In this document: in pieces, positions 8,667 through 34,685 of the stretch
Numbering within the stretch: the stretch's first letter is position 1
How the letters are laid out: every line of letters begins with the position of its first letter
Position numbers and translations under genes: made by a program
The notes under the pieces: model-generated
The model's database searches: none
Told to the model about the DNA's origin: nothing
The model's input: the letters and a program-made list of their open reading frames with translations, nothing else
Source of the DNA: Sulfurovum sp. AR
GTDB lineage: Bacteria; Campylobacterota; Campylobacteria; Campylobacterales; Sulfurovaceae
Direction: 5' to 3'
NCBI RefSeq assembly: GCF_000296775.1
Contig: NZ_AJLE01000003.1
Span: forward strand, 1-64,000
Length of the DNA stretch: 64,000 bases

Positions 8667-9872
8667 ATGGAAAGAAGAGATTTCTTTAAAAAAGCTATTG
8701 TAACTGCTGGTGCTGCAGCTGTAGGTACCAGTACATTAGAGGCAGGGGTAACAACTCAACCTATTGATAACAGAAAAGTATCACCGGTTGCTTTTCCAGA
8801 GAAAAGACCACTGATCATGTATTCTGACAGACCACCTTTATTGGAAACACCTAGAGATGTATTTACCTCTGCACTTACACCAAATGATCAGTTCTTTGTT
8901 CGTTGGCATATGCCAGATATCCCAACTCATATTGACCCAGATACCTATACGATCCACGTCAATGGTCTTGTAAAAAATGAGCTCCATATCTCACTGAATG
9001 ACCTCAAAACCAAGTTTGAACAGGTAGAAGTAACCGCTGTTCTTCAATGTGGTGGTAACAGTCGTTCTGCATTTAAACCTATCGCTGGTGGTATCCAGTG
9101 GGGTTCAGGTGCCATGGGTTGTGCAACATGGAAAGGTGTTCGTTTAAAAGATATTCTTCACCTGGCAGGATTGGAAAGAGATGCAAAGTGGATCGGGTTT
9201 AACGGTTCTGAAAGAGCTGCTTATTATGAAACACCTGAATTTGTACGTGAACTTGAACTCAGTGAACTTGATGACCACGTGATCTTGGCGTACGAAATGA
9301 ACGGTGAAGACCTACCATACCTTAATGGTTATCCTCTTAGACTAGTACTTCCCGGGTATTACTCTGATTCATGGGTAAAAATGCTTTCAAACATCACCGT
9401 AACCAATGAATATAAAAAACTCTTCTTCATGGATGTTGCTTATCGTGTACCGGATAATGAAACAGAATCAGAAACACCGGAAAAGAGATACCCTACGACA
9501 AAGCCTATCAAAAAGATGAATGTCAAGTCTGTGATCGGATATCCAACAAAAGATTCATTGGTATCTCACAAGTCTCATGTCGTAATACGTGGAGTTGCGT
9601 GGGATGATGGTCATGGTATACAAGATGTACTCATTTCTACAGATGGTGGAAAGACATGGGATAAAGCCATTCTTGATGACGGTAAACTCGGTCGTTATGC
9701 TTATAGAGCCTTTAGATATCCATATAAGCCAACTACATTCGGTAAAGTAACGATCATGGCTAAAGCGATCAATAAAATAGGACAAGAACAGCCATTTGCC
9801 AAAGATATCAAATGGAATCATGGTGGATATAAATATAACGGTATCGATGAAGTTACTGTGGAGGTAGTATAA
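8667..9872 (+). CDS. sulfite dehydrogenase, molybdopterin subunit (SorA/SoxC-like)
   Basis: This 401-residue protein is a periplasmic sulfite-oxidase-family molybdoenzyme. The N-terminus RRDFFKKA plus a hydrophobic stretch is a Tat signal (residues 1-26). The molybdenum-ligating cysteine is C128 in LQCGGNSR, and the R79/H81 pair in FVRWHMPDIP fits the active site. A dimerization domain follows in the C-terminal third. It overlaps the next gene, a monoheme cytochrome c, by one base, the arrangement of SorAB, which oxidizes sulfite to sulfate and passes electrons to cytochrome c. SoxC (with SoxD) is the alternative, but no sox genes are adjacent. Confidence 0.88.
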   Translation: MERRDFFKKAIVTAGAAAVGTSTLEAGVTTQPIDNRKVSPVAFPEKRPLIMYSDRPPLLETPRDVFTSALTPNDQFFVRWHMPDIPTHIDPDTYTIHVNGLVKNELHISLNDLKTKFEQVEVTAVLQCGGNSRSAFKPIAGGIQWGSGAMGCATWKGVRLKDILHLAGLERDAKWIGFNGSERAAYYETPEFVRELELSELDDHVILAYEMNGEDLPYLNGYPLRLVLPGYYSDSWVKMLSNITVTNEYKKLFFMDVAYRVPDNETESETPEKRYPTTKPIKKMNVKSVIGYPTKDSLVSHKSHVVIRGVAWDDGHGIQDVLISTDGGKTWDKAILDDGKLGRYAYRAFRYPYKPTTFGKVTIMAKAINKIGQEQPFAKDIKWNHGGYKYNGIDEVTVEVV

Positions 9873-10180
9873 TGAAAAAATTGATTTTAATTGCAGCACT
9901 GCTGGCATCACCGCTTTTTGCACAGGTAAACGAAAAAGTAGAAGTACCTTATGTTGCTTTCCCCATCAAAATGGGTGACGGATTCGATGCAATACAGACA
10001 CATTGTCTTATGTGTCACTCTTTTGGATATATTATAAACCAGGGAAGACAGTCTAAGAAGTTTTGGCGTGGTAAAGTGGATAAAATGATTGTACACTTTA
10101 AAGCACCTATGGATGAAGCAGCCGCTAAAATAACGACAGATTACCTTTTTGAACATTACGGAAATGGAAAACTAGAATAA
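9872..10180 (+). CDS. monoheme cytochrome c subunit (SorB-like)
   Basis: A 102-residue periplasmic cytochrome c with a Sec signal peptide (cleavage near LFA-QV) and one heme site C45-L-M-C48-H49. A late Met (M71 or M79) could be the axial ligand. It starts inside the stop codon of the molybdopterin subunit (TAATG), so synthesis is coupled, and the pair most likely forms a SorAB-type sulfite:cytochrome c oxidoreductase. The size is close to known SorB subunits. The electron acceptor is not encoded nearby. Confidence 0.82.
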   Translation: MKKLILIAALLASPLFAQVNEKVEVPYVAFPIKMGDGFDAIQTHCLMCHSFGYIINQGRQSKKFWRGKVDKMIVHFKAPMDEAAAKITTDYLFEHYGNGKLE

Positions 10181-10248: not shown

Positions 10249-11067
10249 TTATCTGTCATTTTTATTTGTTTCTGACTCATTTGTTTTGGTTTTCGTCTTT
10301 GTTCTAATACGCTCTCCATCCTGGTTTACCCTCGTCTTTGTTCTAACGCGCTCTCCATTCTGATTCACTCTGCTCTTTGTTCTGACACGTTCACCATTCT
10401 GATTGACCCTAGTTTTAACTCTGACGTGTTCTCCATTTTGGTTTACTCTGGTCTTTGTTCTAACACGATCTCCATCTTGTTTCACTCTAGTTGTCGTTCT
10501 GACACGATCGCCATTCTGATTTACTCTAGTCTTGACTCTAACGCGTTCGCCATTCTGGTTGACCCTAGTCTTGACTCTGACACGCTCACCATTCTGGTTG
10601 ACTCTGGTCCTTGTCCTTATATTATCTCTAACATTTGTTCTTGTATTTGTATATTCTCTATTAGTGTTGCGATTACGATCACGATTTCTATAGTGACTTG
10701 ACCTTTGGTAGGCAGCTTTACTTCTATAATATCCATATTTGCCCTCTACCGCACGATAACGATGTCTATTATGGTAGCGATACCCTTTATGGAAATAATG
10801 TCCATGAAGGAATTTACGATCACCAAAATAATAATATCCATTACTGTAATATCCACCATAATAGTAGATTCCACTGTAATAGTAGTAAGGTACACCATAA
10901 TAGTAGGGATAAGGGTAACTTGAAAGAGATACTCTTACACTAGAGTATGGCACCGGGTCGTAATATCCGGAATCATAGTAACCTGAATGATAAGTTGTAC
11001 ATCCGGAGAAGAACAAGGTGGAAGATGCTACGGTAACCAGCCCTAAATATTTTGTTTTATTTAACAT
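10249..11067 (-). CDS. lipoprotein with Tyr/Gly-rich region and 13-residue tandem repeats
   Basis: This 272-residue predicted lipoprotein has a signal ending in FFSGC, a Tyr/Gly/Ser-rich stretch (about residues 22-85), a basic R/N/Y-rich linker, and then eight tandem copies of a 13-residue unit close to TRVNQNGERVR(T/V)K. The tail is Lys/Thr/Asn rich. The start at 11067 is chosen because AGGA precedes it by 6 bases and it begins the signal peptide; an in-frame ATG lies nine codons upstream. The repeat part is strongly basic, so binding to an anionic polymer such as LPS, DNA or exopolysaccharide is conceivable, but I do not recognise the family. Confidence 0.75.
   Translation of the reverse strand: MLNKTKYLGLVTVASSTLFFSGCTTYHSGYYDSGYYDPVPYSSVRVSLSSYPYPYYYGVPYYYYSGIYYYGGYYSNGYYYFGDRKFLHGHYFHKGYRYHNRHRYRAVEGKYGYYRSKAAYQRSSHYRNRDRNRNTNREYTNTRTNVRDNIRTRTRVNQNGERVRVKTRVNQNGERVRVKTRVNQNGDRVRTTTRVKQDGDRVRTKTRVNQNGEHVRVKTRVNQNGERVRTKSRVNQNGERVRTKTRVNQDGERIRTKTKTKTNESETNKNDR
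10297..10608 (-). repeat. eight in-frame 39-bp tandem repeats
   Basis: Eight 39-bp units encode 13-residue copies of TRVNQNGERVRTK-type sequence. Units differ mainly at positions 4, 6, 8-9 and 12-13 (N/K, N/D, E/D, R/H, V/T, K/T). The array lies in the lipoprotein gene. Confidence 0.9.
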
Positions 11068-11123
11068 ATAAATCCTTTCATTTTTGTATATCATAGAATA
11101 TAAAAGTGTAACTATTGTGTAGA

Positions 11124-11777
11124 TTAAAAACCTAAAATTTCTTCATTAGATTCTAAAGGAATCAGACCTTTACTCTTTCGAACAATGGTATCCCGATAGA
11201 TCCATCTTTCTTTTATCTTCTCCTTCTTCTTACGGTCTAGAGCAGAAGTATCATATCTACCGGCCTCCTCACGTTGTCTTTGCGCTTCATAGAGTATCAG
11301 TCCTGTGGCTACTGAGACATTGAGACTTTGCACCATACCCTGCATCGGAATGATGATGATTTCATCAGCCAGTTTTACTATCTCAGATGAAACACCCTCT
11401 TTTTCATTTCCCATTACAAGTAGTGTAGGTTTTGTATAGTCTATTTCTCTAAAAGAAACCGCCTGCTCTTCAAGATGAGTGACTACCACTTGAAAACCCT
11501 GCGTCTTTTTTTCCTTTATAAACGACACCTTATGATCATCATGCATACGGTAACGGTGTGTCCATCTGTGTGCACCCTGTGTGATGGTTTTATGAATACG
11601 AAGACTCGCATCTTCCTTTGTAGCGTAGTAAATATCAAGGACACCCACCGCATCAGCTGAACGTATAATAGCAGAAAGGTTTTGTGAACTGTGGAGATTA
11701 TCCAGCATCACTTGCAGGTCAGGTTGTTTTTTACTCAATACATCATCAATACGGGTTATACGTTTTTCATTTAACAT
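11124..11777 (-). CDS. trmH: tRNA (guanosine-2'-O-)-methyltransferase, SpoU family
   Basis: This 217-residue SPOUT-class enzyme most likely methylates the 2'-OH of G18 in tRNAs using S-adenosylmethionine. The SpoU motifs are present in order: N-x-SAIIRSADAVG (about residues 33-45), GNEKEGVS (about 132-139), and IPMQGMVQSLNVSVATG (about 153-169), which form the trefoil-knot cofactor site. The C-terminal RKKKEKIKERW extension is typical of TrmH. It is transcribed alone and convergent with nothing close. TrmH versus another SpoU member is the only real doubt. Confidence 0.9.
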   Translation of the reverse strand: MLNEKRITRIDDVLSKKQPDLQVMLDNLHSSQNLSAIIRSADAVGVLDIYYATKEDASLRIHKTITQGAHRWTHRYRMHDDHKVSFIKEKKTQGFQVVVTHLEEQAVSFREIDYTKPTLLVMGNEKEGVSSEIVKLADEIIIIPMQGMVQSLNVSVATGLILYEAQRQREEAGRYDTSALDRKKKEKIKERWIYRDTIVRKSKGLIPLESNEEILGF

Positions 11778-11856
11778 AACAAATTATAACCATACAAGCT
11801 AAATATATAGGCGCTGTAAATTCAGGTATAATTGCAAAAAAATATAAGGAAGTGCT

Positions 11857-12354
11857 ATGTGCGACTTCAACACTTTAACAGAGGAAGAAAAAAAGCATTA
11901 CCATGAACTGCTTTTAGAGTGTGCAAACAACTTTGGCGGAAAGAACTTTTTTCTTCATCTCTTAGAAGCCATAAGAGAGACAAAACCCCATCCGCTTACT
12001 GCAGGCAATAGTCAATTCGATATGGAACTAGGGACGATCAAATGGAATAAAGTTATCTTTAATGACAAGCTCCAGCTCTTACTTAAAGCACGTGTCAACG
12101 AGAGTGCTCAAGACAATTTTCTACCGGACCCAAATGCGAAGAGCTATAAAAAGATACTCAATGTTGTACGTACATTAAAACCTATTGTGTTTCATGTAAA
12201 ACCTGCCCATAAAGAAGATGGACCGGGTTTTTTCTTCCAGCCTTTTGATACGATAGATGAACATAAAACAAAATTAAATCCTCTGTTTGATTCACTCTTC
12301 TTTTGTTCAGTAGAGACCGTAAAAAAAGTACTGAACTACGAACCAAAAGGATAA
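11857..12354 (+). CDS. conserved hypothetical protein
   Basis: I do not recognise this 165-residue protein. It has no signal peptide or membrane segment and looks like a cytosolic alpha/beta protein. It has the Cys at residue 2, a GPGFFFQPFDTIDEHKTKLNPLF-type region near residues 128-150 with several aromatics, and an FFCSVETVKKVL C-terminal helix. The gene is preceded by AAGGAAG and is followed two bases after its stop by the YwbE-like gene, so it is probably first in a three-gene operon with the two small conserved genes downstream. Confidence 0.7.
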   Translation: MCDFNTLTEEEKKHYHELLLECANNFGGKNFFLHLLEAIRETKPHPLTAGNSQFDMELGTIKWNKVIFNDKLQLLLKARVNESAQDNFLPDPNAKSYKKILNVVRTLKPIVFHVKPAHKEDGPGFFFQPFDTIDEHKTKLNPLFDSLFFCSVETVKKVLNYEPKG

Positions 12355-26751: not shown

Positions 26752-27180
26752 CTACAATATCAAAAATAAAGAGCACGCATTATAGAACATGTGAAGAAAG
26801 ATACTAGCCCCAATGTGTCCATACTGCTCTTTAAAATACCCGAAGACCAAAGAAGGTACAAAAACAAGCATTGCCCATAACGGTGTATGATGTACGAAAT
26901 GCATCGCAACAAATAGTAGAGATGTTATGAAGTTAGCAACTGATATGTAAAAAAGAGATGGATACTGTTTCGTCTTTGAAGCAATGAACTCCTGGATCAC
27001 TCCACGAAAAGCCAACTCCTCCACTACCGGATAAATAATGATCAGAAAAAATAGAGATCGAGTATCGAAGTCTAGTAGATCAATATCAAATATTTGATGT
27101 TGAAATAGAGTGTTATAAAGAAGGATAAACAGAGGAGCAGCCAGGACAGCCGCTCCTAAATGAATATGTATTTTATTCAC
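26752..27180 (-). CDS. CPBP-family intramembrane glutamic protease (sorting-signal protease)
   Basis: A 142-residue membrane protease of the CPBP/ABI (CAAX-like) family with four helices. The conserved sites are E54-E55-x3-R59 in VEELAFRG, H94 in AMHF and H130-x3-N134 in LHMFYN. It is shorter than general CPBP proteins. It sits eight bases downstream of a large exported protein that ends with a Gly-rich, Cys-containing, one-helix, Arg-rich tail. This is the layout of dedicated sorting pairs such as the JDVT-CTERM system, so I infer that it processes that single neighbour. Confidence 0.75.
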   Translation of the reverse strand: MNKIHIHLGAAVLAAPLFILLYNTLFQHQIFDIDLLDFDTRSLFFLIIIYPVVEELAFRGVIQEFIASKTKQYPSLFYISVANFITSLLFVAMHFVHHTPLWAMLVFVPSLVFGYFKEQYGHIGASIFLHMFYNACSLFLIL

Positions 27181-27188
27181 AAAGAAGA

Positions 27189-29084
27189 CTATTTAATAAA
27201 TCTTCTTCTGAAAGGATAGAGTAATCCCAGAGCCATCATCACTAGGAACATCATGTCAAAGTTCTTGCTGTCAGGGTTGTATGTACAACCTCCACCACCA
27301 CTGCTTGGGTTTATAACATCTGCAGGTGGTGTGACTGGGGTTATCTCTGCCGTTGTCTCTGCTGTCAAGTTTTGCTCGACACCATCAGCACCGTATCTTA
27401 CATCGGTATAATACGCAGTTACAACTGTACCATCTTGCACTGCCAGGATACCATTATTATCTATAGCCACAGTTTCTGTTTCTAATGATCCTATAAATAA
27501 TGAACTGTTTGCATCTCTTTCTATCAATAGAACACTTTCTTCTCCACCTAAACTACTTTTTACAACAACAGTTAAGTTTTCTTCTTTCGTTGGATCCGTA
27601 TTAAGATCAGTATCGGCAACAGCCACTCTTAATGTTGTACCTGCAGTAAACGTTGGTTCAGGTACAATTGTAATATTTCCTTCCGAACTGAATACAGGTA
27701 ATGCAGGTGGCACAGTTGTGTGTATAGGTGCTGTTTGATTACTATCTACATACGGTGTAATACGTAAGATAAATGTATCACCTATAGCACTCTTTGCCCC
27801 AACATTTATAATATAATTTAGCCCAAGATTCAATACGTCTTCAATTTTTCCTACGCTATATAAAGGATTAAGTGCCCACTGTTGAAGGTCCACATCATCC
27901 ACTGGTGCCCAATTGTCAGCCATACCTTTATACCAATCTACAGGTAAATTTGTTCCAGGAGGTACACCCCAGAATGCCATTAAATCAGCATCTGTGCTAG
28001 GATCATTGTCATCATCATAGAAGATACCATATGGTGCCCACTCAGAATGTATCCAGTCACCAAAGAGTTGAGGGTAATTTCCTCCAGGTACACTACCTGT
28101 ATCACCAGCTAATGGAGCTGTATTATATATACTATAGTTACCTTCACCCAAAGTAGATGGATAATAAGCTCTATCAATATCAAAGAATCCTATCTCATCA
28201 AAATGACCCTCTTCTATTGGCCCCCATAAACCATGTGCAAAGTTTGCAAACTCATCAGGGAGAAAAATATTATAATCTCTTGATGCTATATCACCTTCAC
28301 CGATACCTAATGAAAGTGTTAGATTCGGATCCGTAGTAGGAACACCTAGAAGTCCATACTTTAATACTTCAACTTTATATCCTGCTAGACGCGCACCTGT
28401 ATAGTTATTAATCTTTGAAAAAACTTGGTATCGAACTACATTTTCAGCATCAGGATCGTTAGGATCAAGTTTAAATACTATATCAACTGGGTTACCATAT
28501 CCTGCTATATACTTTCCTAGCAGATCTTTGTTCACAGTAGTTGGCTGGAGGTTTATTTTAAAACGTTTATGGGTTTGAAACCCACTTGAACAGATAGTAG
28601 GAACAGGGCCTGCGTCAGCAGTTGTATCCAAATATCCACTCTCACCTGTTCCCGTATTATACTCATCCAAATAAGAAGTCGTCATGATACAATTTGATGG
28701 TTTACCATGTTTTGTTCCAGTGTCATCATTAATGACTTTTATTCCTGCAGGTTCACCTACAGGCCAATCTTTACCATGCAATTTTCCCCTTACTTCACCA
28801 CCTGTGCTAATTATAGATTCAAAACTCATAGTATCGTCCATCTCTGGATATACTGCACTCGCCTGTAAAATGTCTCCATAAATAATATCACTAAAATCAC
28901 TATCACTAGTTATATTGACTACAACATTATCCAAGCTCCATCCACCATAACCAAATTGTGTACTATCAAAAACAGTATCACCTGGTGTTGCACCGATGAT
29001 TTTACCTGCATATACACTTGACCCAAGCAGCATCGCTGCCGCTACACTCATACCTAAAATTTTATTTTTATAGTTTTTTTTCAT
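27189..29084 (-). CDS. exported protein with C-terminal GGGGC/helix/RRR sorting tail
   Basis: A 631-residue secreted protein with a signal peptide (to about residue 27) and a tail typical of protein-sorting signals: SSGGGGC600, a short spacer NPDSKNFD, a hydrophobic helix and FRRRFIK. The body (FKINLQP, DIVFKLDP, VFSKINNYTGARLAGYKVEV) resembles 'choice-of-anchor F' type surface proteins. A repetitive, acidic Ig-like stretch precedes the tail. The CPBP protease gene follows by eight bases. The cysteine could become lipid-modified after cleavage; that is inference. Surface location and function are unknown. Confidence 0.72.
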   Translation of the reverse strand: MKKNYKNKILGMSVAAAMLLGSSVYAGKIIGATPGDTVFDSTQFGYGGWSLDNVVVNITSDSDFSDIIYGDILQASAVYPEMDDTMSFESIISTGGEVRGKLHGKDWPVGEPAGIKVINDDTGTKHGKPSNCIMTTSYLDEYNTGTGESGYLDTTADAGPVPTICSSGFQTHKRFKINLQPTTVNKDLLGKYIAGYGNPVDIVFKLDPNDPDAENVVRYQVFSKINNYTGARLAGYKVEVLKYGLLGVPTTDPNLTLSLGIGEGDIASRDYNIFLPDEFANFAHGLWGPIEEGHFDEIGFFDIDRAYYPSTLGEGNYSIYNTAPLAGDTGSVPGGNYPQLFGDWIHSEWAPYGIFYDDDNDPSTDADLMAFWGVPPGTNLPVDWYKGMADNWAPVDDVDLQQWALNPLYSVGKIEDVLNLGLNYIINVGAKSAIGDTFILRITPYVDSNQTAPIHTTVPPALPVFSSEGNITIVPEPTFTAGTTLRVAVADTDLNTDPTKEENLTVVVKSSLGGEESVLLIERDANSSLFIGSLETETVAIDNNGILAVQDGTVVTAYYTDVRYGADGVEQNLTAETTAEITPVTPPADVINPSSGGGGCTYNPDSKNFDMMFLVMMALGLLYPFRRRFIK

Positions 29085-29166: not shown

Positions 29167-30450
29167 TTAAAACAGCATATTGAAACTAATGAGGAAATCT
29201 CTATAGTCTTCTATATCTGATCTTGACGGTTTTGCCCAGCTATGCTCTACCGTCAGCTTCATAGGTAGGTAGTACTTGAACGAATAGTCCATTCCAACGG
29301 TGATGGCATTATCCAAATCTTTTACATTGATGTGTTTTGTATTAGAATAAGCATAAAGATCATTCATTGTAAGGTACGCAAGTTTCACACCAAAACCTGG
29401 AGCAAGATTGACTTCACCTCCTACAGAGAATGCTTCATTATCAATATTATCTAGATCTTTAGAGCTACCAGCACCTATACCTGTATAGGTCACTTCATTT
29501 TTAAAGACTTTACTCATCGTTAAAGTAGCACTTTTATCACCGATGTAACCCTCTACCATGAAGTCCATTCCATAGGTCTCACGCTCTATGCTGAGAGAAC
29601 TCGTACTAGATACAGTCTCCCCACCTTTAATAATAAATCCACCTAAGATAACATTATAACTACCTAGAGGGTATTCATATGCGATTCTAGCAAAAGGAAT
29701 CATATTACTTGTAAGATCCATTTGGTTATTATCTTGCCCCTGAGCATACATACCCACGGTTGCAAACACATGATCACCATCTGCCAGTGCACCGTCCTTA
29801 TCAAAGTAGGCTTGTAGTCCTGTTGCAGCACCTGTGCCAATCTCTGTTGCCTGTAGTGCATTGGAGAGTCTTCTTATGTCAAACGTTCTAAACGGTTTAT
29901 AAAGACCTGAATTATAGATCTCCATACCGGAGAATGGACCAAAATCAGCTGTAGAGTACGCTGCTAATCCCATGTATCCATCTTCTATCTCTTGTGCATA
30001 AACCATTTTACCTGAAATGGAATTATCATTCTGAGATTTGTAAGAGAGGTTGACAAGAGCTCCAAAATTATTTGTCACCCTTCCCCCCACAAACAATGCA
30101 GCTGTTCTAGGTACAGATAAAATACCGTCATTGGTTACCGTAGTAGCTTTGACCACTCCAGATTCACTCGGTTTATTATCTGTCTTTTCGTAAATAGACT
30201 TGAACATCACAGATGGATTGATATCCGAACCGCTACTGTTTGCATCTGTGAACTTCTGGCTCATGGTCATACCTGAAGCCAAAAACTTTCTACCAAATTT
30301 ATTGAGTCTTTCTATGTGTTGTATATGACATGCCGTACAGTCCATACCTGTCTGTGTAGCAAACATAGGCATAGCCATTACTTCAGTTGTCAAACTGATG
30401 AATCCAAGTAGCCCGACTGCTACCAAACTCTGTTTATTCATTTTCTTCAT
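29167..30450 (-). CDS. Cyc2-like outer-membrane cytochrome-porin fusion
   Basis: A 427-residue protein with a signal peptide (cleavage near VMA-MP), one heme c site C38-T-A-C41-H42 directly after it in MPMFATQTGMDCTACH, then about 370 residues of alternating amphipathic strands ending in a terminal Phe, typical of an outer-membrane beta-barrel. This layout, and the FGRKF segment after the heme, resemble the Cyc2 family of fused cytochrome-porins used for outer-surface electron uptake, especially from Fe(II). Divergence from characterised Cyc2 is likely, so the donor is unknown. It precedes the sorting pair on the same strand by 82 bases. Confidence 0.7.
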   Translation of the reverse strand: MKKMNKQSLVAVGLLGFISLTTEVMAMPMFATQTGMDCTACHIQHIERLNKFGRKFLASGMTMSQKFTDANSSGSDINPSVMFKSIYEKTDNKPSESGVVKATTVTNDGILSVPRTAALFVGGRVTNNFGALVNLSYKSQNDNSISGKMVYAQEIEDGYMGLAAYSTADFGPFSGMEIYNSGLYKPFRTFDIRRLSNALQATEIGTGAATGLQAYFDKDGALADGDHVFATVGMYAQGQDNNQMDLTSNMIPFARIAYEYPLGSYNVILGGFIIKGGETVSSTSSLSIERETYGMDFMVEGYIGDKSATLTMSKVFKNEVTYTGIGAGSSKDLDNIDNEAFSVGGEVNLAPGFGVKLAYLTMNDLYAYSNTKHINVKDLDNAITVGMDYSFKYYLPMKLTVEHSWAKPSRSDIEDYRDFLISFNMLF

Positions 30451-30590: not shown

Positions 30591-30896
30591 ATGTCGTTCA
30601 TAAAAATAGGAGTATCACTTTTTGCAGTAAGCTTTCTTTCTGCATCACCCACTCATACAATTTATGTACAAAAATGTGCTAGCTGCCACGGTGTGAATGG
30701 AGATATGAAGGCAATGGGAACTTCTAAAGCGATCAAAGAGATGCCAGTCGAAGAGATAGAAAAAGCACTCATCAGCTATGCGTCAGGCGAAAGAAAGGCA
30801 CTGCCCTTTGTTAAAAGTATAAAAGAAACTTTTATGAAAAATCACACTAAAGAAGAGCTTCATGAAGTTGCTACCTATATTCATGGCCTAAAATAA
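30591..30896 (+). CDS. periplasmic monoheme cytochrome c
   Basis: A 101-residue cytochrome c with a short signal peptide (cleavage near LSA-SP) and one site C-A-S-C-H near residue 29 in VQKCASCHGVNGD. This CxxCHG-NG/GD context is the class I cytochrome c (c553/c5-like) style common in Campylobacterota. A Met near residue 42 or 47 could be the second ligand. It is divergent from the Cyc2-like gene and could carry electrons from it, which is inference from position. It is followed by two hairpins. Confidence 0.85.
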   Translation: MSFIKIGVSLFAVSFLSASPTHTIYVQKCASCHGVNGDMKAMGTSKAIKEMPVEEIEKALISYASGERKALPFVKSIKETFMKNHTKEELHEVATYIHGLK

Positions 30897-30970: not shown

Positions 30971-30995
30971 GGTGCTATTTAAATAGCCCTTTTTT
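30971..30995 (+). terminator. rho-independent terminator
   Basis: The palindrome GCTATTTAAATAGC with flanking GG/CC is followed by T6. It ends the cytochrome c transcript just before the convergent Gly-rich gene. Confidence 0.65.
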
Positions 30996-31257
30996 AGTGA
31001 CGACCGCCACCACCTCTTTGTCCACCCATCGAGCCCATATTCGATCTATTTGAATTTGTACCTTTATACTCATACTGGTTTTGATATTGATATTTATATT
31101 GGTTTTTTTCACCACTACCGTCTTTGAGTCTTTTTTGATACTGTTGTTGAAGTTTTTGTTCCATTCTAAGATGTTGCTGTAAACTGTCCTCTGCAGCAAC
31201 TAAAGAAGGTGTGGCTAAAAGTGCTACAGCACCCAATGTTAATAAAGTTTTTTTCAT
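30994..31257 (-). CDS. small secreted Gln/Tyr-rich protein with Gly-rich basic tail
   Basis: An 87-residue exported protein: signal peptide (cleavage near VAA-ED), a Q/K/Y-rich middle (QQHLRMEQKLQQQYQKRLK then YQYQNQYEYKG), and a Gly-rich end GGQRGGGGRH. No family is recognised. Its tail resembles that of the next gene upstream on the same strand (31341), suggesting a related pair. Its promoter carries the two 11-bp repeats shared with two other nearby units, so it is probably regulated by the adjacent two-component system. The role in the envelope is unknown. Confidence 0.7.
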   Translation of the reverse strand: MKKTLLTLGAVALLATPSLVAAEDSLQQHLRMEQKLQQQYQKRLKDGSGEKNQYKYQYQNQYEYKGTNSNRSNMGSMGGQRGGGGRH

Positions 31258-31340: not shown

Positions 31341-31730
31341 CTATCTTCGACCTCCTCCGCCACCGCTACCTGATCCACCACCCATGGATCCTCCCATGCC
31401 TGAATTACCACCATATCCACTCATGAAGTTACCCTGTGCCGAACCATCATTGAATTTGAATTTAAATCTTGATCTGTTGTCATAGTCATAACTTTCTGAT
31501 TTTTTTTCGGCCGCAGCTTCATTTCCAGATCCTATACCATTTGATTTATATTCATCTTTAAATACAAAACGTTTCTTCTTTTTAGAAGGTTTCTTTTGAG
31601 GCTCAGGTTTGGTCAGTGCTTTCTTCTGACCTGCCTGTTGAAGGATATTCCCTAATCCTTTCTCCTCTGCATGAAGTGACATGGCGCCAAATATACAAAG
31701 TGTAGGAAGTATATATTTACATTTCATCAT
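31341..31730 (-). CDS. small secreted basic protein with Gly-rich tail
   Basis: A 129-residue exported protein: signal peptide (cleavage near LHA-EE), a Lys/Pro-rich stretch with KKPSKKKKRF, a Phe/Lys region RSRFKFKFNDG, and a Gly/Ser/Met-rich tail ending in GGGGGRR. I chose the tandem ATGs at 31730/31727, which have AAGG upstream and begin the signal peptide; the open frame extends further upstream across the divergent regulator gene but has no ribosome site there. It is divergent from the response regulator and shares the two-box promoter type. Function unknown. Confidence 0.7.
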   Translation of the reverse strand: MMKCKYILPTLCIFGAMSLHAEEKGLGNILQQAGQKKALTKPEPQKKPSKKKKRFVFKDEYKSNGIGSGNEAAAEKKSESYDYDNRSRFKFKFNDGSAQGNFMSGYGGNSGMGGSMGGGSGSGGGGGRR

Positions 31731-31813: not shown

Positions 31814-31836
31814 CATAGTAAATATCAGGAGTGCCG

Positions 31837-32511
31837 ATGAAAATTTTATTATTGGAAGATGATATAGGTTTGGCCGATATCATGTCAGAGTATCTTGAAG
31901 ACAATGATTTTGATCTAGACCTTGTCTATGATGGGGAAGAAGCACTGAATAGAGCCTATGAGACACAGTATGACCTCTATATCTTCGATGTCAATGTGCC
32001 TGCGATCAAAGGTTTTGATCTATTGAAAACACTGCGAGACAATGGTGATGCCACCCCTACGATATTTGTCACATCTCTCAATGACATAGAGGATGTATCA
32101 CAAGGCTTTGAAAGCGGTGCAGATGATTACCTCAAAAAACCTTTCGAACTTGCCGAACTTCTTTTACGTATTAAAAACATCCAGAAGCGTTCTTTTGCAC
32201 AAAAACGTTCTAACATGATACAGATAGATAAAGATATCACTTTTGATATAGATACGGAATTACTCCATACAGGTGGAGAGAGTGTTTCTCTGCCACAAAA
32301 AGAACTTAAACTGCTTAAACACTTTTTGAAACATCCCAATGAGGTCGTCACATTTGAAAGTCTGTATGATGTACTCTGGGACTATGATGAAACAGCCTCA
32401 GCTGAATCTCTAAGGGCACATATAAAAAATCTTAGAAAACACCTGACCAAAGATATGATACAGAACCTTAGAGGTCTTGGTTACAGGTTTGAAATGGAAA
32501 CTTCAGACTGA
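31837..32511 (+). CDS. OmpR/PhoB family response regulator
   Basis: A 224-residue two-component regulator. The receiver domain has the acidic pair E7-D8-D9, phospho-acceptor D51 in IFDVNVP, the switch T in IFVTSLND, and the K in DDYLKKPFE. The C-terminal winged helix (about 128-222) ends with the typical LRAHIKNLRKHL and RGLGYRF. The ATG at 31837 is preceded by AGGAG at 5 bases; a GTG two codons earlier overlaps that site and is unlikely. The kinase gene overlaps its stop (ATGA). It probably binds the tandem 11-bp repeats nearby, the site type used by this family. Confidence 0.93.
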   Translation: MKILLLEDDIGLADIMSEYLEDNDFDLDLVYDGEEALNRAYETQYDLYIFDVNVPAIKGFDLLKTLRDNGDATPTIFVTSLNDIEDVSQGFESGADDYLKKPFELAELLLRIKNIQKRSFAQKRSNMIQIDKDITFDIDTELLHTGGESVSLPQKELKLLKHFLKHPNEVVTFESLYDVLWDYDETASAESLRAHIKNLRKHLTKDMIQNLRGLGYRFEMETSD

Positions 32512-33677
32512 TGAAGGCTAGTACCAAAAGTGTCATTATTTTCATGGTTGTCTACCTGGGGTCACTCAGTATTTTAGCCACATGGGTGGGGTATCTTAAT
32601 TATATAGACCGTAAGAATGCTTTGATCGAGAAGATGCATTTGGAAATGCGATACAAAGCGAGAAGTATCAATGCACAGTTGGAATACTACCATATGAACA
32701 AAAGTGAGCAATTCACTTTTTATGAAGAAGGGTATGACATCGCACTCTATGATAACAAAAGAGAACTCCTAGCTTCCACATTCATGGATGATATTGATTT
32801 TTCCAAACTCTTCTATGCCGATGATGACGAATACTATCTTGTAGAGACACTCTACAAAGAGTATCTTGATGTTAAATACATAGTGATCAAGAAACCTCTT
32901 GATATACAACAGTTAAATGAGATCCTTGAAGAGATCACTCTCATAGCTTTTTATGGATTTATTTTTATACTTTTTGTCGCACTTCTCTTGGCCAAGATCA
33001 TGTTATCTCCCATCAAAAGATCCATCGCCTCTCTCACCAAATTCATGAAAGATGCCACCCATGAGATGAATACTCCCATCAGTACGATACTCATGAGCTA
33101 TGAACATATGGACAAACACAATCTCGATGCAAAACAGATTCGCTCACTTGATCGTATAGATATCGCAACCAAAACCCTCTCCAGTCTTTACCGAGACCTC
33201 TCTTTTGCTTCTTTCCATGACTATATAGAGTATGAAGACACACCAATAGATGTCAAAGAGGTGATCCTTGAAAGAATCAAGTATATGGATACACTCATAC
33301 AGTTTAAAGGGCTAAAGGTCAGCACTGCATTACAACCCAAGACGATCTATATGGATCAACGAAAACTTATCTTGCTTATAGACAACCTTCTCTCAAATGC
33401 GATAAAGTTCTCTAAAAAAAACGGTGAGATCGAAGTAAGTTTGACTGAGAACTATTTTTCTGTAAAAGATAATGGCATCGGTATTTCAAAAGAAGATCAA
33501 AAAAGTATCTTTGATCGTTTTAAATCCACGAACAGTTTACATGGCGGATTTGGTGTGGGATTGGATATAGTGAATCAGATCTGTAAAGAGTATCATATAA
33601 AGATCGAACTGGAGTCAGAGCCTAAAAAAGGAAGTACATTTAGACTGGTATGGCCAGAACAAAAATTTAATAAATAA
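32511..33677 (+). CDS. sensor histidine kinase
   Basis: A 388-residue inner-membrane kinase, the partner of the preceding regulator. Two membrane helices (about residues 8-28 and 143-165) bracket a small acidic periplasmic sensor domain of about 110 residues with FMDDIDFSKLFYADDDEYY. The H box is ATHEMNTPIS with H184, followed by N box DNLLSNAIKFS, G1 VKDNGIGI and G2 GGFGVGLDIV. No HAMP domain is evident between helix 2 and the H box. The cue is unknown; an acidic sensor patch could bind cations, which is speculation. Confidence 0.92.
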   Translation: MKASTKSVIIFMVVYLGSLSILATWVGYLNYIDRKNALIEKMHLEMRYKARSINAQLEYYHMNKSEQFTFYEEGYDIALYDNKRELLASTFMDDIDFSKLFYADDDEYYLVETLYKEYLDVKYIVIKKPLDIQQLNEILEEITLIAFYGFIFILFVALLLAKIMLSPIKRSIASLTKFMKDATHEMNTPISTILMSYEHMDKHNLDAKQIRSLDRIDIATKTLSSLYRDLSFASFHDYIEYEDTPIDVKEVILERIKYMDTLIQFKGLKVSTALQPKTIYMDQRKLILLIDNLLSNAIKFSKKNGEIEVSLTENYFSVKDNGIGISKEDQKSIFDRFKSTNSLHGGFGVGLDIVNQICKEYHIKIELESEPKKGSTFRLVWPEQKFNK

Positions 33678-33686
33678 GATGTGTAT

Positions 33687-34112
33687 TTACGCGACTTTAC
33701 GTCCGGCATAGTAGTTGATCTTCCAGCCATCTTTCTCTTTTGAAAAATAGAGTTTCTTTATTTTACCATCTTCTGTATAGTTAATGGTCTGTCGTTCTTC
33801 ACCGTTCCATGATACAGACTTCATTTCGATCACAGGCGACTTTTTTCTGGAAATAAGATCATAAGAGAGTTTATGTTCGACTTCACTCAATGCATCTGCA
33901 TCTTTTCCTATCACTTTTAAATGTGACTTGAACTCTGGGTCTCTCAATGATAATCTTAAACCAAACGTTTCCAGAGTCATCATATATGACTCTGGTGTCA
34001 TCAACTCTTTGACCGTTGAGAGATCACCACTATATAATGATGTATAGTAAACACTGAGTATATCTTTAGGCTCTAACAGTGAGTACGTCTTGCTACTGTT
34101 TTTTAACATCAT
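33687..34112 (-). CDS. NTF2-like/DUF4878-like conserved hypothetical protein
   Basis: A 141-residue protein without a clear signal peptide. The order SVYYTSLYSGDLSTVKELMTP, then LSYDLISRKKSPVIEMKSVSWNGEERQTINY and KDGWKINYYAGRK fits the SnoaL/NTF2-like (DUF4878-type) fold, a cone-shaped small-ligand domain. It lies three bases after the DUF2202 gene on the same strand, so it should be in that operon and share its two-box promoter. The function is unknown. The end is convergent with the kinase gene. Confidence 0.65.
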   Translation of the reverse strand: MMLKNSSKTYSLLEPKDILSVYYTSLYSGDLSTVKELMTPESYMMTLETFGLRLSLRDPEFKSHLKVIGKDADALSEVEHKLSYDLISRKKSPVIEMKSVSWNGEERQTINYTEDGKIKKLYFSKEKDGWKINYYAGRKVA

Positions 34113-34115
34113 TGA

Positions 34116-34685
34116 TTATACTCTTTCAATCGCTGCCTGAAATGCATCAAGGTGACTTAAACTACCTTCTTTAAGGCTTTCAAATACAGAGACTACATCT
34201 TCTGGCATACCTTCAGCCGCATGTTCCAGATCTTCTATGTCAGTATATTCGATCAATTCGCCTATTTTGAGTGCATCAAGAAGTGATTCTTCACCTTCAC
34301 CCACACAGGTATCATAGAGTTCTTGAAGTACAGGCAATACAAAGCTTCCTACTGCATCTTCATCTACACCTGAAGTATCCACACCGTATTTTTCACAAAG
34401 TTCTCTTGCCGAATCCATATGTCTCTGTTCTGATACCTGAATCGATGCAAAAGTATTTTCATCTGTATAGATATTACCTAAAGTAATATATACATCTCTG
34501 GCTACCTTTTCTTCCTGGTATATATAGAAGAGCATATCTTTTTGATCTTCAGTCAATACCACAGTAGTATCCGTAGTCTCTTTTTTTGCATAAGCTGAAG
34601 ATGAAAGCAATGTTACACCACTTGCACCTGCAACCAACATTTTAGTTAAAAAACTTCTTCTATCTTTAATAGTATTCTTATTCAT
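34116..34685 (-). CDS. Tat-exported DUF2202 (ferritin-like) protein
   Basis: A 189-residue protein with a twin-arginine type signal (DRRSFLTKMLVAGASGV; cleavage near AYA-KK) followed by a DUF2202 domain, a ferritin-like four-helix bundle. Visible motifs: YIYQEEKVARDVYITLG with the E-E/R pattern, VSEQRHMDSARELCEKYG, and late HLDAFQAAIERV, giving several Glu and His positions able to hold a di-metal site. The start at 34685 follows AGGA; upstream extension is not supported. Export via Tat is consistent with cytosolic metal loading. It is co-transcribed with the 33687 gene. Confidence 0.85.
   Translation of the reverse strand: MNKNTIKDRRSFLTKMLVAGASGVTLLSSSAYAKKETTDTTVVLTEDQKDMLFYIYQEEKVARDVYITLGNIYTDENTFASIQVSEQRHMDSARELCEKYGVDTSGVDEDAVGSFVLPVLQELYDTCVGEGEESLLDALKIGELIEYTDIEDLEHAAEGMPEDVVSVFESLKEGSLSHLDAFQAAIERV

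Follow-up and report, generated by a model that had tools for sequence, protein, structure and literature searches.

The gene at positions 29167–30450 of a 64,000-nucleotide stretch of Sulfurovum sp. AR DNA (the window; contig NZ_AJLE01000003.1, positions 1 to 64,000) raises the question of whether a sulfur-oxidizer-like bacterium carries an outer-membrane iron oxidase of the Cyc2 type. The original prediction was of a Cyc2-like fused cytochrome–porin, suggesting extracellular electron uptake, with a divergently encoded periplasmic cytochrome c as its possible electron acceptor. Our reading, which we hold with about as much confidence as doubt, is that the gene encodes a divergent outer-membrane cytochrome–porin of the Cyc2 superfamily that would take up electrons from outside the cell, with Fe(II) as a plausible donor, and deliver them to the adjacent cytochrome.

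The window gene encodes a conserved, probable cytochrome–porin fusion

The predicted layout, a single CxxCH directly after the signal peptide and a terminal Phe, is borne out by the 427-residue translation (Table 1). The signal peptide is followed immediately by MPMFATQTGMDCTACHIQHIERLNKFGRKF, eleven residues lie between its predicted end and the CxxCH motif, and the only two cysteines of the protein are those of the motif. The C-terminus (...DFLISFNMLF), which is hydrophobic at positions -1, -3, -5, -7 and -9, carries the signature of outer-membrane proteins.

Members of the clade to which the protein belongs (46–89% identity) occur in 14 genomes among 150 relatives, the source genome counted. 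Two further matched genomes, G116 and G126, contain more distant kinds of heme-porin, and G023 contains a weak match only. The CxxCH motif shows no variation among the 15 aligned clade members and is kept in 16 of 16 members of a wider set; its absence from close homologues would have counted against the original prediction. The gene has a dN/dS of 0.06–0.09 relative to four relatives, indicating purifying selection. Together with the conserved heme motif, this selection rules out an artefact or a pseudogene.

A strand-alternation analysis found 15 strand-like segments compared with 11.3 +/- 2.2 in shuffled sequences, a weak excess, and an AF2 model of the window protein with one homologue (two sequences only) gave a pLDDT of 27. 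The support from alternation is weak; profile homology to canonical Cyc2 is the better evidence for a barrel, and the barrel and its heme plug are predicted from homology.

Table 1. Features of the cytochrome–porin gene and of the surrounding gene island in the window
Feature	Position	Strand	Basis
Cyc2-like fused monoheme cytochrome–porin, 427 aa	29167..30450	-	ORF translation, homology, clade tree
Signal peptide MKKMNKQSLVAVGLLGFISLTTEVMA, residues 1-26	30373..30450	-	By inspection; hydrophobic core, Ala26 invariant in alignment
CxxCH heme c motif, residues 38-42	30325..30339	-	Translation and alignment
Porin (beta-barrel) region, residues about 76-427	29170..30225	-	Barrel-only profile match; strand-like alternation (weak)
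Monoheme class I cytochrome c, c553-like, divergently transcribed; proposed periplasmic electron acceptor	30591..30896	+	PF00034; PDB cytochrome c553 E 1.7e-7; linkage
Choice-of-anchor F family protein with C-terminal JDVT-CTERM; proposed cell-surface partner	27189..29084	-	NF033657 E 2e-46, NF033191 E 3e-13; co-occurrence
JDVT-CTERM sorting signal (GGGGC, transmembrane helix, basic tail)	27198..27302	-	NF033191, residues 595-629
MrtJ, JDVT-CTERM glutamic-type intramembrane protease (sorting enzyme)	26752..27180	-	Above cut-off for NF033192, E 8e-35
Small exported Gly/Gln/Tyr-rich protein, cluster c9	30994..31257	-	Conserved neighbour
Small exported Gly-rich protein, cluster c4	31341..31730	-	Start is an internal Met, longest ORF from 31904; conserved neighbour
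OmpR-type response regulator	31831..32511	+	PF00072 and PF00486; linkage
Sensor histidine kinase	32511..33677	+	PF00512 and PF02518; linkage
Small protein, NTF2-like by eye, cluster c10	33687..34112	-	Linkage, also in second family
DUF2202 protein, Tat-type signal MNKNTIKDRRSFLTK	34116..34685	-	PF09968 E 2e-31; start is an internal Met, longest ORF from 34865; linkage in both families

Homology to Cyc2

The Cyc2 references were sequences with the motif AxPxFAR[QK][TY] (PMC8406198) or slight deviations from it. They comprised six proteins that a phylum search turned up in other families of the order, the L016 protein from another family of the order, and plasmid proteins of Ideonella, Methylocystis, Caballeronia and Paraburkholderia, whose genes lie close to c-type cytochrome genes; beyond Campylobacterota, sampling covered plasmids only. 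Profile alignment (hhalign) matched the window clade to canonical Cyc2 over 300 columns with 99.5% probability and an E-value of 1.6e-22, which is pairwise and not database-calibrated. With the heme domain removed, the barrel alone still matched canonical Cyc2 at 95.3% (E 2e-8, again pairwise and not database-calibrated). The G126-type heme-tagged outer-membrane family, a built-in negative control, reached 0.2–1.3% on the barrel alone and matched in the heme domain only. Profile comparison thus shows homology of the window protein to Cyc2 in two places: the heme domain and, as a separate match, part of the barrel.

A canonical Cyc2 query retrieved a single tblastn match from the source genome, the window gene itself (E 2e-11), so that canonical Cyc2 was not detected there. 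Pfam, NCBIfam and the PDB held no credible family for the window protein or its family profile; this blank is uninformative because canonical Cyc2 proteins likewise have no credible match in Pfam or the PDB. Relatives of the cytochrome–porin were not found in the viral contigs searched.

The comparison also brought up other heme-porins. A third heme-tagged outer-membrane kind, found at L017 (G126), L019 (G004), L059 (G424) and L060 (G427), has a Cyc2-like N-terminal heme domain, CHSxIPxLNxxGxxFLRNGFR, joined to a C-terminal region in which homology to the Cyc2 barrel was not detected; one of these proteins contains a long Gln/Gly/His-rich insert. In a second Campylobacterota family, canonical Cyc2 genes (L079:6066-7415, L080:4940-6409 and L084:5625-6959) lie, as judged by eye, between genes for TonB-receptor-like proteins, binding proteins and ABC transporters, a setting unexpected for a respiratory iron oxidase. 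Cyc2-like genes occur as tandem pairs at L071, L072, L073, L118, L119 and L120, and the copies included in the tree fall into separate clades, which suggests that the duplication is old and that the pairs may form a two-porin system.

Divergence from canonical Cyc2

An ML tree of 38 proteins gives the window clade (16 rows) 100/100 support and places it with two non-canonical groups of the second family, the tandem pairs and a 'mid' group. A long branch of 2.67 changes per site parts these three groups from canonical Cyc2. Like Cyc2 of Mariprofundus ferrooxydans PV-1 and Acidithiobacillus ferrooxidans, Cyt572 and the proteins of Clusters 1–3, the window protein has a signal peptide followed by a single CxxCH. 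It shares with Cyc2 and Cyt572 the heme pattern PxF..QTG..C..CH...(P)xL..GRxF, a porin-type C-terminus and a length above 365 residues; at 427 residues it passes the FeGenie Cyc2 filter of at least 365 (PMC8406198).

The clade differs from these proteins in several specific positions. The motif AxPxFAR[QK][TY] upstream of CxxCH, said to be unique to Cyc2 (PMC8406198), is absent from the window protein, which reads AMPMFATQT. Arginine at the FAR position is found in none of the 16 window-clade proteins, compared with 11/11 canonical, 5/5 mid and 4/6 tandem-pair proteins. Following the GRxF block, all 16 window-clade proteins carry GMT in place of G[YF]T, a substitution seen in 0 of the 22 proteins elsewhere. 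The PxL that follows CxxCH is replaced by ERL in the window protein but is present in 12/16 of the clade, one residue farther from CxxCH than in Cyc2. Within the barrel, the window clade, the mid group and the tandem pairs have in common a conserved segment, FSGMExYNTGLYKPxR, where canonical Cyc2 has NNNPTVQDxWN. The gene neighbourhood is different as well.

The Cyc2 identity originally proposed therefore stands as far as homology goes, but the PxFAR[QK][TY] motif fails and the protein falls in a clade of its own. By homology it has the Cyc2 plan, yet the diagnostic motif is missing; we therefore place it in a divergent Cyc2-like lineage and do not class it as a Cyc2. Cyc2 in Campylobacterota is already known (PMC12442345), and those proteins share phylum and superfamily with the window protein; drawn from BLAST hits of a Chlorobium Cyc2, they were reported to nest within the Zetaproteobacteria (PMC12442345). 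The canonical-type Campylobacterota Cyc2 proteins found here (L053-L058) form a clade apart from the window clade. Since the arginine is lost and GMT stands for G[YF]T, motif-based Cyc2 screens would miss the window clade, and it may have been overlooked because the lost motif excludes it from a published motif screen.

Loss of the diagnostic arginine and the different barrel segment indicate that the substrate of the window clade may differ from that of Cyc2; with the invariant new methionine, which we would guess to be a heme ligand, they leave room for a donor other than iron. The electron-import architecture would then be the same and the donor might be, for instance, polysulfide or some other reduced form of sulfur, or else a soluble shuttle, with the loss of the FAR arginine and the gain of GMT retuning potential and specificity for sulfur chemolithotrophs. 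The loss of the arginine and the gain of GMT throughout the clade, GMT being seen in none of the other 22 proteins, and the different barrel segment fit this alternative, as do the sulfur-oxidizer types among the hosts (Sulfuricurvum, L020) and the predominance of sulfur oxidizers among Campylobacterota on the Cyc2 tree (PMC12442345). We nevertheless consider it unlikely, since the gene island contains no recognised sulfur-oxidation gene and the Tat-exported ferritin-like DUF2202 protein linked to it in both families suits iron better.

A conserved gene island surrounds the cytochrome–porin

We compared 24 loci, of which 18 belong to the window clade and the other 6 are tandem pairs. Together they span two families and three or more genera, including Sulfuricurvum (L020, a contig that seems to be present also in G533). 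The island recurs across the two families though the flanks differ between most loci. In 19/24 loci (13/18 for the window clade, 6/6 for the tandem pairs) a c553-like cytochrome is encoded within 9 kb of the cytochrome–porin, usually on the divergent strand. Of the five loci that lack it, most are on short contigs or near contig ends. No such gene was found in the 15 loci checked around canonical or 'mid' Cyc2-like genes. The window copy has the one CxxCH and the PF00034 match over cut-off of a class I cytochrome c. The divergent cytochrome noticed in the original prediction is thus a conserved companion, which supports its suggested role as electron acceptor. At L022 (G072), two cytochrome–porin paralogues (8704-10002 and 10545-11864) flank a small cytochrome c gene, the second being 51% identical to the window protein.

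Linkage of the c553-like cytochrome in two families also bears on the possibility that the protein is a plain porin in which the heme tag is structural, or a gate that senses redox state under the control of the adjacent two-component and LuxR systems, and conducts no electrons. The shortness of the heme domain, with no multiheme wire, and the histidine kinase, response regulator and LuxR genes of the island would be in keeping with this. Given the cytochrome linkage and the homology to a family of proven Fe(II) oxidases, we judge it very improbable.

The second recurring partner is a choice-of-anchor F or O protein, encoded near the cytochrome–porin in 17/24 loci (16/18 of the window clade and 1/6 tandem-pair loci). 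The window and its nearest kin have type F (NF033657) with JDVT-CTERM and MrtJ; the alternative is type O (NF040591), some copies of which begin with a lipoprotein-like signal. In the window, the NF033191 match of the type F protein includes the cysteine, transmembrane helix and basic tail of a JDVT-CTERM substrate, and the cognate MrtJ is encoded next to it, as in myxosortase-type sorting (PMC11980579); the difference from that system is that here the sorted protein is tied to a cytochrome–porin. MrtX, a relative of MrtJ, has been shown to process and surface-anchor CTERM-tagged proteins (PMC11980579). The choice-of-anchor F protein of Sulfuricurvum (L020:1894-3405) has no JDVT-CTERM match and ends in another transmembrane-like tail, the same partner with a different anchor.

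Of the 150 relatives, 9 encode choice-of-anchor F and 7 encode O, 13 in union, and all 13 also encode the cytochrome–porin. The one remaining holder of the 14 is an incomplete MAG in which the contig breaks off within the gene. The association has a Fisher p of 7e-18, or 8e-14 within the genus, in tests that ignore shared ancestry; adjacency in two families is the stronger evidence. MrtJ scores over cut-off in 12/14 cytochrome–porin holders and in 8 non-holders. On plasmids, choice-of-anchor F was not found beside Cyc2, the only match being a short JDVT-CTERM one in Sulfurovum mangrovi, and among the matches listed for choice-of-anchor O all were in the Ig-like N-terminal part. We found no link between choice-of-anchor proteins and Cyc2-type proteins in the literature searched.

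Further recurring genes encode a LuxR regulator, a histidine kinase–response regulator pair, small Gly-rich exported proteins, a DUF2202 protein with a Tat signal and an NTF2-like protein. The LuxR gene was not seen in the window itself; LuxR, DUF2202 and the NTF2-like protein are present in most tandem-pair loci of the second family. No family scored above cut-off for the NTF2-like protein of the window (33687–34112), and no shared operator was clear in the intergenic region across more distant relatives. The DUF2202 protein (34116–34685) belongs to the ferritin-like clan. DUF2202 occurs in 86/150 relatives, with several matches in the source genome, and because the family is so widespread its presence alone means little; its co-occurrence was dropped as evidence.

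A ferritin-like neighbour would also suit redox chemistry at the outer membrane that serves to acquire or detoxify iron or metals, in which a reductase or oxidase feeds uptake or periplasmic storage and respiration is not involved. Dedicated regulators and the transporter-rich setting of the second-family canonical Cyc2 genes described above point the same way. We regard this as quite improbable, as the island in the window lacks a recognised transporter and the conserved partnership with a cytochrome c points to respiration.

A model for electron import

The reading that we prefer, import of electrons from an external donor, can be put as follows. The heme domain would plug the periplasmic mouth of the barrel, and a small external donor, most likely Fe(II), would enter the pore and give an electron to the heme. 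The electron would then pass to the divergently encoded c553-like cytochrome and on to heme-copper oxidases, of which the source genome encodes two catalytic subunits, or to other acceptors. Sorted to the surface by MrtJ, or directed there by a lipoprotein signal, the choice-of-anchor F/O protein would act where the pore opens to the outside and might, for instance, capture the donor or remove oxidized product. Periplasmic iron may be handled by the Tat-exported, ferritin-like DUF2202 protein, and the island may be controlled by the LuxR-type and two-component regulators. Such a conduit would share with MtrAB, MtoAB and PioAB a barrel and a heme protein moving electrons across the outer membrane, but it differs from them in having one heme in one fused polypeptide and no multiheme wire.

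Homology to Cyc2 and the ferritin-like neighbour favour Fe(II) over any other single donor. Cyc2PV-1, for which Fe(II) oxidase activity is proven, has a potential of 208 mV (PMC8406198), and it has been argued that Fe2+ must enter the Cyc2 pore, perhaps accompanied by a ligand or chaperone that would escort Fe3+ out as well (PMC8406198). More tentatively, and with doubt outweighing confidence, we propose that the cytochrome–porin, the choice-of-anchor F/O protein and the c553-like cytochrome form a conserved three-part electron-import module of sulfur-oxidizing Campylobacterota, that this module has escaped notice because the motif by which Cyc2 is recognised is missing from the family, and that the surface protein is the extracellular ligand or chaperone postulated for Cyc2.

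Cyc2 is the main marker of neutrophilic iron oxidation, and published screens require the FAR motif. A conserved gene set with an electron carrier and a surface-anchored partner suggests an overlooked electron-import module, and a conserved lineage without FAR in sulfur oxidizers would enlarge the circle of suspected users of Fe(II) or other extracellular donors. The surface protein encoded in the island is a concrete candidate for extracellular substrate handling by a single-heme conduit, a question raised for Cyc2 (PMC8406198).
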